Origin: a bacterium
Lineage (GTDB): Bacteria > Actinomycetota > Acidimicrobiia > Spongiisociales > Spongiisociaceae
Assembly (NCBI GenBank): GCA_028821265.1
Contig: JAPPGU010000085.1
Span: 1 to 64,000 of the forward strand
Direction of reading: 5' to 3'
Length of the DNA: 64,000 bases
The notes below the pieces were generated by a model. It was given only the letters and a program-made list of their open reading frames with translations, did no database searches and was not told the DNA's origin. Positions 7,804 to 15,996 of this stretch are shown one piece after another (position 1 is the first letter of the stretch; each line of letters starts with the position of its first letter). The position numbers and the translations under genes were made by a program.

Positions 7804-7831
7804 ATGCTAGGCGGGTACCAATAAATGTCCA
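7804..7831 (-). promoter_or_regulatory. Possible gltBD promoter
   Basis: On the minus strand TGGACA (7826-7831) and TAGCAT (7804-7809) are separated by 16 bases, an acceptable -35/-10 pair. Transcription would start near 7797, so the leader would begin just before the three hairpins. This is a sequence match only. Confidence 0.3.
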
Positions 7832-7954
7832 GTTAGCCCACGGTAACGGAACCCTATAGTTGGGGCATCGCGGACCGGCCTTCCCCGTCTTTTCAGCACC
7901 CGCTACACCGGGCCGGGTACGGCCGGGATCTCCTGGACTGATAGTTTGGGGGTC

Positions 7955-12854: not shown

Positions 12855-14015
12855 GTGTCCACCCGCCTCCCCTCCGCCTACCGGCTCCCCCGGTTAATCC
12901 TTCTCTGCTACATCGCTTCTCTGGCTACGGGCATCGGCGTCATCTTCTCGCTCCTGGCCGTCATCCAGGACCGGTTCGGGTTTCCCACCTGGTCCTTGGG
13001 CCTGCTCGCCGGCATACCCTTCGCGATGACCCTGTTCGGCAACATCTGGCTGACCCCACTGGCCGACCGGGGCTGGGAGCGGCGGCTCATCATGCTGGGA
13101 TGCCTTCTCCTAGTTATGTCTCTGCTCTGGATGGTCTTCGCGGTGGAGCTCTGGCAGTGGGTTGCGGCGCGGGCGCTCATGGGCGTCGCGGAGGGTATCT
13201 CGGTGGGAGCGGCGCGCCGGGTGATGCTGAGCTGGACTCCGGACCGCCACGGACAGGCACTGAGCTCGCTGATGGTGGCGATGCTGGCCGGGATCCTGAT
13301 CGGGCCCGTGCTCGGGGGGGTGCTGAACGAGTTCGGCCCAGCTCTGCCGTTCCTGGTACCCGCCGGGGCGGCAGTGGTAGTGCTGCTGGCCCTGCCGGCG
13401 GTCCGGCCCGGAGAGTTCGAACGACCGACCGTGAGGCTATCCCGACGCAGCCTGACCGCCCTGCCGGGCTTCCTCTCCGGGCTGCTGCTGGCGGCCTCCA
13501 ACTGGCTCTACATAGGCGTCATCGACGCCATCTGGTCCCGGTACATGACCGACCTCGGTGCCCGCCCCTGGCTGATAGGACTCGGATACCTGGTGATCGC
13601 CCTGCCCGCCATCGTGCTCACCCCCATCAGCGGCCGGCTCTCGGACCGTGTGAACCCGATCCGCCTCGCCCTGGTGGCGGCGGTAGTCGGACTCCCCCTC
13701 CTGGCCGGCTACGGGTTGGTGTCGGCAGTGCTCACCCTCCTTGTGGTAGGCGCACTTCACTCGGCCTGCTGGGCCTTCGTGACCCTCCCCGGTCAGGCCG
13801 CCGTGGCCAGGGCCGCGCCATCCAGCCAGGCCGCCGAAGCGCAGGGCCTCGTTGAGGCGTACGGGTTCGTCCTGGCCGCGATCGGGGCATTCGCCGCCGC
13901 ACCTATATACGAGGCCGGCGGCCCGAGGTCCCTCTTCCTGATAACCACGGCCGCCGTGGCGCTCACCCCGCTGGCGGTGTTCCTGCGCCGGTCCAAGTGG
14001 AGGAACGCCTTCTGA
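12855..14015 (+). CDS. MFS transporter
   Basis: Major facilitator carrier of 386 residues with about 12 hydrophobic segments. The conserved loop after helix 2 reads LADRGWERR, a variant of the family's GxLaDrxGrr motif, and the corresponding loop in the second half reads GRLSDRVNP. Such proteins in actinobacteria are usually efflux pumps or uptake carriers for small metabolites. It starts at a GTG 12 bases after the protease gene, so the two are probably co-transcribed. Substrate cannot be inferred. Confidence 0.85.
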   Translation: MSTRLPSAYRLPRLILLCYIASLATGIGVIFSLLAVIQDRFGFPTWSLGLLAGIPFAMTLFGNIWLTPLADRGWERRLIMLGCLLLVMSLLWMVFAVELWQWVAARALMGVAEGISVGAARRVMLSWTPDRHGQALSSLMVAMLAGILIGPVLGGVLNEFGPALPFLVPAGAAVVVLLALPAVRPGEFERPTVRLSRRSLTALPGFLSGLLLAASNWLYIGVIDAIWSRYMTDLGARPWLIGLGYLVIALPAIVLTPISGRLSDRVNPIRLALVAAVVGLPLLAGYGLVSAVLTLLVVGALHSACWAFVTLPGQAAVARAAPSSQAAEAQGLVEAYGFVLAAIGAFAAAPIYEAGGPRSLFLITTAAVALTPLAVFLRRSKWRNAF

Positions 14016-14058
14016 CAACCGGGCACAGGCGGTGCGGTATCCTCCCCGCTTCTGTTCG

Positions 14059-14161
14059 AGGAGGGTGCTGAAAGAGACGGGGGTTGGTTGGCCCTCAATG
14101 GCTTTGAACTGGGGTTTCGTTGCCGACCATCGGGCGACTGGACATTTTTCAGTACCCTCCT
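14059..14161. other. 103-bp element closed by a 17-bp stem
   Basis: Bases 14059-14075 pair with 14145-14161 over 17 positions, 15 Watson-Crick and two G-U in the plus-strand RNA. Inside, TGGTTGGC (14085-14092) pairs with GCCGACCA (14122-14129) over eight positions with one G-U, and smaller stems can form within that. It lies between the MFS stop and the dehydrogenase start, ending about 30 bases before the TTG. It could be a structured leader RNA, a 3'-end structure or a tiny inverted-repeat element; no known RNA class was recognised and no target duplication is evident. Confidence 0.5.
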
Positions 14162-14192
14162 GGCAAGTGCCTGCGCGTCGAGGAAGGAAGAC

Positions 14193-15173
14193 TTGGGTTA
14201 CCGGATCTGGTTCGAGCGGAGGGTGACGCCGGCACTGATGCCGTTCGTGCCCCACTCCGTCGACATGCTGGGTCCGGGACGAGTTGACGACCCTCAGGCG
14301 GGAATCTCGACCGCCCAGGCCGCCATCGCCGCCCGGCTCGATTACGACGACACCCTCTTCGATCGGGCTCCCGAACTGCTGGGGGTGTTACGCACCGGTA
14401 TCGGCTACGACGCCGTCGACCTGGAAGCCGCCACCCGCCGTGGCATCGCGGCCTGCAACGTCCCGCAGGGCCCGACCGTGCCCACTGCCGAGCACTCCGT
14501 GGCACTCCTCCTGGCCACCGCCAAGGAGCTCGTACGGTCGAGCGGCCGGCTCAGGGAGAGCACGGGCAACTACTACTCAAGGCACAGAGCGATGGAACTG
14601 GACGGGAAGACCCTGGGCCTGGTGGGATACGGGCGGATCGCCCAAAGGGTCGGGACTGTCGGGCTTGCCCTGGGAATGAGAGTCCTGGCCCACGACCCTT
14701 ACTTACCGGACGATGCGTTTCCGCCTGGTGTGGAGCGGGCGAGGACGCTGGAGGAACTCCTGGGCCGGAGCGATGCCGTCTCGGTCCATATCCCGATGAG
14801 CGCCGGCAACCACAGGATGTTCAACGCCGGTACCTTCGCTGCCATGAAGAAAGGGGCCTTGTTCGTGAACGCCGCCCGCGGAGGACTGGTCGACCACGAT
14901 GCCCTGATCGAGGCACTTGACAGCGGGCACCTGTCGGGTGCCGGGCTGGACGTCACCGATCCCGAGCCCCTCCACCCCGACCATCCGTTGCTCCACCGCA
15001 CAGACGTGATAGTGACGCCCCACGTGGCCTCGGCTACCCCTGAGGCCCGGGAGCGCATGTTCAGCATGGCCGTACGCCAGGCTCTCATGGTGCTGGACGG
15101 GCAACGACCGCCCCATCTCCTCAATCCGGACGCCTGGCCCGGCGTACTCAGCCGTCTCGGCGGCACCCGATGA
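14193..15173 (+). CDS. D-isomer-specific 2-hydroxyacid dehydrogenase
   Basis: NAD-dependent 2-hydroxyacid dehydrogenase of 326 residues, of the phosphoglycerate dehydrogenase/hydroxypyruvate reductase group. The Rossmann site reads GLVGYGRIAQRVG; the catalytic Arg is in NAARGGLVD, Glu in DVTDPEPLHP and His in VTPHVASAT. The ORF is open to an ATG at 14088, but that stretch lies in the structured element and has no family similarity. The TTG at 14193 is preceded by AGGAAGGA and gives GYRIWFERRVTPALMPF, so I start there. The short-chain dehydrogenase gene follows 19 bases later, which suggests two oxidation steps in one catabolic route. Substrate unknown. Confidence 0.85.
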   Translation: MGYRIWFERRVTPALMPFVPHSVDMLGPGRVDDPQAGISTAQAAIAARLDYDDTLFDRAPELLGVLRTGIGYDAVDLEAATRRGIAACNVPQGPTVPTAEHSVALLLATAKELVRSSGRLRESTGNYYSRHRAMELDGKTLGLVGYGRIAQRVGTVGLALGMRVLAHDPYLPDDAFPPGVERARTLEELLGRSDAVSVHIPMSAGNHRMFNAGTFAAMKKGALFVNAARGGLVDHDALIEALDSGHLSGAGLDVTDPEPLHPDHPLLHRTDVIVTPHVASATPEARERMFSMAVRQALMVLDGQRPPHLLNPDAWPGVLSRLGGTR

Positions 15174-15192
15174 AGCGAAACCAGGAGGCGTA

Positions 15193-15996
15193 GTGGGACG
15201 ATTCGGCGGCAAGGTCGCGCTGGTTACCGGTAGCACCCAGGGCCTGGGCGAGGCGATCGCTGTCCGGTTGGTGGACGAAGGCCTGGCGGGGCTGGTGGTG
15301 ACCGGTCGGAACGAGGAGAGAGGTGCCGCGGTTGCCGCCCGCCTGAACGGCGCCGGGTGCCGCACGGTGTTCGCGGCCACCGACCTGGCCGATCCTGCCG
15401 AGGTCGGCAACCTGATCGACATGACCGACCGGGAGTTCGGGCGGATCGACGTTCTGGTCAACGCGGCCGGCGACACGCAACGCGGCACGGTCGAGGACAC
15501 CACCGTCGAGCTGTTCGATCACCTCATGGCGGTCAACCTCCGAGCCCCGTTCCTGCTGATGCAGGGCGCTATCCGCCTGATGCGCCGCGAGGGCATCGAA
15601 GGTTCGATCGTGAACATCGCCTCGGTGGCGGCCCACGGCGGTGGTCCCTACCTGACGATCTACTCCACCACCAAAGGCGCCCTGGTGACCCTCACCAAGA
15701 ACGTCGCCAACTCGGTGCTCTGGGACCGGATCCGGGTCAACGTGCTGAACATCGGTTGGACGGACACCCCCGGCGAGCACGCCGTCAGGACCAGCTTCCA
15801 TGGCGACGACCAGCGATGGCTCGAGAAAGCCGAGGCCGACCAGCCCTTCGGGAGGCTTCTCAAGACCGCCGAGGTTGCCGGGGCGGTGGCGTTCCTCGCA
15901 TCCGACGAGTCGGGCATGATGACCGGAGCGGCGGTCGACTTCGGCCAGATCGTGGTCGGATGCACGGCGGTCCAGCATCCGCCTCCCGACGACTGA
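15193..15996 (+). CDS. Short-chain dehydrogenase/reductase
   Basis: Classical SDR of 267 residues. The cofactor site is TGSTQGLGEA near residue 13, the NNAG-type motif is VNAAGDT, the catalytic Ser lies in NIASVAAHG and the Tyr/Lys pair in YSTTKGALV. The GTG start at 15193 follows AGGAGG at the right distance. It is the second gene of the dehydrogenase pair; the substrate is probably a sugar acid or polyol-like hydroxy compound, which is inference. The C-terminus is ordinary for the family. Confidence 0.9.
   Translation: MGRFGGKVALVTGSTQGLGEAIAVRLVDEGLAGLVVTGRNEERGAAVAARLNGAGCRTVFAATDLADPAEVGNLIDMTDREFGRIDVLVNAAGDTQRGTVEDTTVELFDHLMAVNLRAPFLLMQGAIRLMRREGIEGSIVNIASVAAHGGGPYLTIYSTTKGALVTLTKNVANSVLWDRIRVNVLNIGWTDTPGEHAVRTSFHGDDQRWLEKAEADQPFGRLLKTAEVAGAVAFLASDESGMMTGAAVDFGQIVVGCTAVQHPPPDD

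Follow-up and report, generated by a model that had tools for sequence, protein, structure and literature searches.

A probable miniature inverted-repeat element with IS1182-type ends beside a 2-hydroxyacid dehydrogenase gene of Acidimicrobiia

The hairpin that lies upstream of a D-isomer 2-hydroxyacid dehydrogenase gene in an Acidimicrobiia contig is very probably a non-autonomous miniature inverted-repeat element (MITE) of about 103 bp with IS1182-type ends that is moved in trans; the explanation as a whole is given a probability of roughly 0.85. The dehydrogenase is a chance neighbour of the insertion, and a sensing function is unnecessary to explain the hairpin. An earlier sequence-only reading of the window, i.e. 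the whole stretch of 64,000 nucleotides that was analysed (assembly GCA_028821265.1, contig JAPPGU010000085.1, positions 1 to 64,000), had proposed a leader RNA sensing a hydroxyacid or sugar acid, a small RNA or a miniature inverted-repeat element. The last of these is supported here, the small RNA is not, and the leader RNA is contradicted by the loci of relatives. A false riboswitch lead is thereby removed and an abundant small mobile element of uncultured Acidimicrobiia is named, copies of which would otherwise go on being flagged as candidate structured RNAs in genome scans of the clade.

In the proposed mechanism, the stem is the fold of the two terminal inverted repeats, AGGAGGGTGCTGAAAAAG with CTTTTTCAGTACCCTCCT (nearly the consensus), and a transposase acting in trans, probably of the IS1182 type and active in the past or at present, would recognise the terminal ends together with the subterminal GTTGGCCCG repeat. 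Insertion occurs at CTAG/TA-like sites, often TAG stop codons or short spacers, usually with a 2-bp TA duplication, as comparison of filled and empty alleles shows. At the dehydrogenase, a strong mRNA hairpin is predicted if the promoter lies upstream of the element.

The hairpin and its copies

The features of the window that are referred to below are as follows.

14059 to 14161, plus strand: miniature inverted-repeat element, 103-bp copy; homologous copies share these end bases
14059 to 14075, plus strand: left terminal inverted repeat AGGAGGGTGCTGAAAGA, the 5' arm; family consensus CTAGGAGGGTGCTGAAAAAG
14087 to 14095, plus strand: left half of the conserved inner inverted repeat, consensus GTTGGCCCG, from copy alignments with pairing counted
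14131 to 14138, plus strand: right half of the inner inverted repeat, consensus CGGGCCAAC, from copy alignments
14145 to 14161, plus strand: right terminal inverted repeat TTTTTCAGTACCCTCCT, the 3' arm; family consensus TTTTTCAGTACCCTCCTAG
7809 to 7901, minus strand: degenerate further copy of the 103-bp element (69% identity), with TAG after its right end
12855 to 14015, plus strand: upstream MFS transporter gene (Pfam), context only
14193 to 15173, plus strand: D-isomer 2-hydroxyacid dehydrogenase gene (Pfam), context, with a TTG start after GAGGAAGGAAG

The 17-bp stem formed by 14059-14075 and 14145-14161 had been described from the letters alone, and it is indeed free of mismatches in the plus-strand RNA. 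The plus strand reaches a minimum free energy of -48.2 kcal/mol, whereas its shuffles average -33.9 (s.d. 3.5); the z score is -4.04, and none of 200 shuffles folded as well. The minus strand of the 103-nt element folds less well (z -2.34) because two plus-strand wobble pairs turn into A.C mismatches. The covariance-model match to this copy extends from 14058 to 14162 and scores 99 bits. A further inner stem of 8 bp, proposed between 14085-14092 and 14122-14129, can form in the window copy but is not the conserved inner repeat of the family; the latter, GTTGGCCCG/CGGGCCAAC, is not intact here, having lost one base and undergone two changes, and its right half (14131-14138) accounts for the lost base and one of the changes. 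From the end of the element to the dehydrogenase TTG at 14193, a distance previously put at about 30 bases, 31 nt were measured. An SDR is a further Pfam-named neighbour, alongside the MFS transporter and the dehydrogenase. A promoter and terminator scan of 13000-15500 returned no sites.

The genome of origin (G000) is a 2.6 Mb MAG in 87 contigs with a completeness of 84.56%, in which the element occupies 27 places at E ≤ 1e-6, the window copy included. That several copies genome-wide would point to a mobile repeat had been stated beforehand, and the 26 further copies therefore favour the miniature inverted-repeat option. The better alignments within this genome span from stem end to stem end, the boundaries of the repeat being those of the stem. 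Each of the nine other genomes of the genus holds at least 12-43 matches at E ≤ 1 among the best 40 candidates scored per genome. A covariance model built from 55 copies and applied to the best 28 candidates per genome, so that copy numbers are lower bounds, gave matches in 13 of the order's 138 genomes; all 13 belong to a single family, and by genus these were 10/10 in g1, 1/1 in g2 (two weaker matches), 2/2 in g3 and 0/2 in g4. When 84,980 species genomes were scanned with a pattern, 38 stretches were found in six MAGs, five of them named Acidimicrobiia bacterium and one named bacterium (isolate APA_bin_98).

Between GG and CC the unit measures 96-111 bp, mostly 99-101, with terminal repeats of 17-19 bp. 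The element is thus short, carries terminal inverted repeats and has no coding capacity, and its many dispersed copies have defined ends, all of which are properties of a MITE. From 97 unique copies, 83 were of full length with flanks and 82 of these had parsable ends. Divergence was measured on 69 non-redundant copies, rows at 92% or more identity having been dropped; a unit length of 97-104 was found in 64 of the 69, and 55 of these were taken as alignment rows while nine were not. No recent burst is seen, since among the non-orthologous copies kept under this cut-off (rows ≥92% dropped) none exceeds about 91% identity to another. A derivative of about 68 bp was observed at L037 (about 2688-2756), from which the whole loop has gone and in which the outer and inner inverted repeats are retained.

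Other repeats were met in the same genomes. A second dispersed repeat, about 165 bp long and more abundant, has GTGGTCTGTCTG/CAGACAGACCAC(TAG) as its ends and is present at L125:3972-4136, L040 (about 1126-1300), L037 (about 2800-2965) and L109. Matches to it are numerous in all of G009, G014, G012 and G010, and no Rfam family reached its gathering score on it. In L040 and L144 it lies directly against the 103-bp element, and its end was seen at the L033 site in G012. A third repeat-like stretch, in the left flank of L035 (joined query 1560-1690), contains GAGGCAGACGTGTGTTTCGACCAGG and has many matches at 72-92% identity in the same four genomes (G009, G014, G012 and G010).

Insertion sites and empty alleles

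None of the nine other members of the genus has the element in its orthologous dehydrogenase spacer, an outcome that the earlier reading had named as refuting its proposal and that here counts against a leader RNA; at this site the element is restricted to the lineage of the window. The end of the upstream MFS gene is recognisable in seven of the nine empty spacers; G011 provides the spacer only and G007 is strongly diverged. The start region of the dehydrogenase is conserved in relatives without the element. The junction in the window is altered or ambiguous, TTCGA[N]GCAAG in the empty form becoming TTCGA[...]TGGCAAG in the filled form, and the net insertion corresponds to 14060-14161 or an equivalent register. 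Directly before it, at 14030-14058, lies GGTATCCTC.CCGCTTCTGTTCGA, which most members of the genus have kept upstream of the dehydrogenase. This conserved stretch may hold the promoter, in which case the element would open the mRNA leader in the window strain only. In a separate comparison of G009 (L067) with window positions 14160-15173, the dehydrogenase was 99% identical and the end of the upstream MFS gene clearly less so; this drop in identity is suggestive of a recombination breakpoint close to where the element inserted.

Empty alleles were sought for 23 copies of G000 and for the window copy, partial or poorly matching copies being left out; for the 23, joined flanks were used as queries against four relatives only (G009, G014, G012 and G010). 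An element-free allele was found in a relative for 20 of the 24 sites, namely the window site and 19 of the 23 others (L028, L029, L030, L031, L032, L034, L037, L038 and L042; L036, L039, L041, L043, L044, L045, L046, L047, L049 and L052). No clean empty allele was obtained from the four relatives for L033, L035, L040 and L048. Nine of the 20 comparisons of filled and empty alleles display a clean 2-bp duplication, which is TA at L029 (with three nucleotides lost on the left), L030, L037, L039, L041, L044, L046 and L052, and GA at L047, where GA stands on both sides and in the empty allele. The duplication is altered or ambiguous in the other 11, the window copy among them. Insertion polymorphism and target-site duplication, as in a MITE, are thus both observed.

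In the flanks of the 82 full copies, the left side has A at -1 in 75, T at -2 in 49 and C at -3 in 46, and the right side has T at +1 in 66, A at +2 in 60 and G at +3 in 53. The junction consensus is therefore (C)TA before the element and TA(G) after it, with CTAG/TA favoured. CTAG at both ends fits a 4-bp duplication, and the non-CTAG sites L031, L037 and L047 fit one of 2 bp; the duplication listed for ISPse1 (IS1182) is 4 bp. Blunt insertion without duplication, prompted by L042 and the window copy, was considered and rejected, as a 2-bp duplication is the better fit for L047 and the eight TA sites.

With respect to genes, 74 copies were placed: 34 between tandem genes, 13 between divergent and six between convergent genes, and 21 overlapping a called frame. 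Against tandem genes, 24 copies are in the opposite and ten in the same orientation, a count in which the copies are not independent. The stop-side distance is -1 or 0 in 15 of 46 cases (simple gene caller, orthologues included), and TAG stop codons are therefore frequent targets.

Conservation of the stem

Non-orthologous copies differ more in the loop (39.8%) than in the outer (15.3%) or inner (19.0%) stem. In 17 orthologous pairs, which were assigned by flank similarity and of which L120/L036 could be spurious, the outer stem carries 44 changes over 574 positions, the inner stem 20 over 306 and the loop 34 over 572, giving a divergence of 7.7% for the (outer) stem versus 5.9% for the loop. 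Because the stem and loop of orthologous copies diverge alike, unlike those of unrelated copies, the stem is probably kept for mobility and not as an RNA at each site. The pattern is read as one in which the repeats would be selected as long as the element can move and would drift once it has been inserted.

Pairing was counted on a hand-named structure, because consensus folding of the copy alignments (RNAalifold included) gave almost no structure. In 55 copies, 90.1% of pairs were intact and ten pairs had double changes, compared with a shuffle mean of 4.8 (none of 500 shuffles had as many) and with 4-9 in slid structures; the covariation signal is weak and ambiguous. The G.T and A.C states of the stem are equally common (44 versus 45).

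These data also bear on whether the MITE has been domesticated, its hairpin having gained a general role after insertion, be it in attenuation at gene ends, in stabilising transcripts or in their processing by RNase III. The clustering at stop codons (15 of 46 stop-side distances at -1 to 0) would suit such a role, and Correia and ERIC elements are reported to act on transcripts in this manner (PMC10969869, PMC3049150). However, the CTAG/TA target itself yields the clustering, and neither the stem divergence of orthologous copies, which is not below that of the loop, nor the 44:45 ratio of wobble to A.C states points to retention of the fold, so that domestication appears unlikely.

The likely mobiliser and comparison with known systems

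The element-type end motif is GGAGGGTGCTGA. The IS1182 end CTAGGAGGCTGCTGA (L169, L175) differs from CTAGGAGGGTGCTGA of the element by one mismatch in 15, the similarity being only about 15 bases long. DUF772 transposases are present in 21 of the 138 genomes of the order, and inverted CTAGGAG-type ends 1.4-2.0 kb apart (at most four mismatches in 15) were found at 12 of 29 DUF772 loci examined, against a mean of 0.35 and a maximum of two in shuffled loci. About ten of the 12 end pairs look true, and those at L159 and L178 look accidental. It is the pairing of ends that carries the evidence for IS1182, because the density of single ends at DUF772 loci (0.635 per kb) is only modestly above that of the control (0.408 per kb). 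The three proteins tested, from L118, L169 and L171, all score above the NCBIfam IS1182 cut-off, and the nearest IS1182 element with matching ends is that of L118 in G002, of the same family (CTAGGAGGGTGGTGT). The match between the ends of the element and those of IS1182 elements in related bacteria makes an IS1182-type transposase the likeliest mobiliser, past or present. Judged by these ends, IS1182 would also be the likeliest origin of the element.

Within the genus, DUF772, DDE_3 and Y1 transposases were each found in none of ten genomes (the own MAG being 84.6% complete), and DDE_Tnp_1 matches in three of the ten had no element-like ends. An autonomous partner carrying the ends of the element in the same genome, which is usual but not obligatory for a MITE, was not found in the genus.

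Derivation from a TA-duplicating transposon of the IS630/Tc1-mariner type, the origin suggested for RUP, would suit the 2-bp TA duplication, the TA/CTAG target and the length of about 103 bp; this origin is nevertheless improbable given that DDE_3 is lacking in all ten genus genomes (the control was positive in three of 14) and that the ends match IS1182 elements of the order. There is a similarly slim chance that an unrecognised enzyme, of neither IS1182, IS630 nor Y1 type, maintains the family and that hairpins aimed at CTAG/TAG stop codons, and so spread to gene ends, shape transcript ends genome-wide, alongside at least one other CTAG-ending repeat family. Very unlikely is a REP-like or IS200/IS605-type single-stranded hairpin element mobilised by a Y1 (RAYT-like) transposase: the repeat is palindromic and extragenic, and the junctions at L036, L042 and the window look blunt or imprecise, but Y1_Tnp is missing from ten of ten genus genomes (control positive in five of 14), most clean junctions have a TA duplication and both ends match IS1182. 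The riboswitch-like leader RNA controlling the dehydrogenase is scarcely credible, as its strong plus-strand fold 31 nt from the start codon and a conserved wobble pair that suits the plus RNA better than the minus are set against nine of nine orthologous loci at which close relatives lack the stem altogether, dozens of copies beside unrelated genes and the absence of stem constraint in orthologous copies. No known RNA class was recognised in Rfam either, where nothing exceeded the gathering score for the whole window, for 13980-14260 at E up to 10 or for five copy loci.

Best read as an IS1182-type MITE, the element offers many empty and filled sites at which the spread of a small element without a visible partner transposase can be studied. 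A literature search on miniature inverted-repeat or repeat elements in an Acidimicrobiia or sponge context returned no described element, and the family therefore appears to be undescribed. It appears to be a new family of a well known kind, IS1182-linked MITEs being already in print.

RUP of Streptococcus pneumoniae is associated with TA duplication. It is 107 bp long with IS630-Spn1-like ends and resembles the present element in size, in high copy number and in a transposase thought to be supplied in trans (PMC3049150); it differs in its IS630 partner, whereas DDE_3 is absent from the Acidimicrobiia genus (0/10). The Correia/NEMIS elements of Neisseria, likened here by description, are associated with promoter, IHF-site and RNase III functions. 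They are likewise abundant intergenic MITEs, and RNase III is reported to cleave their transcript at the inverted repeats (PMC10969869). The MITEs of Methanosarcina acetivorans with ISMac2 (IS1182) ends are, compared by description, likewise IS1182-linked; they are 160-169 bp long, are present in 7-14 copies with inverted repeats of 25-26, and differ in being archaeal and in having direct repeats of 4 or 0 (PMC3852290). MITEPye1 of Paracoccus yeei is an IS1182-associated MITE with a reported Mfold value of -47.93 (PMC11578231). Its chromosomal copies number 1-3 per genome and some strains have intact IS1182 partners, whereas the Acidimicrobiia element has tens of copies and a partner was not found in the genus; compared by description, MITEPye1 is like it in being short, non-autonomous and intergenic, with IS1182-like terminal inverted repeats, direct repeats and a long stem-loop.
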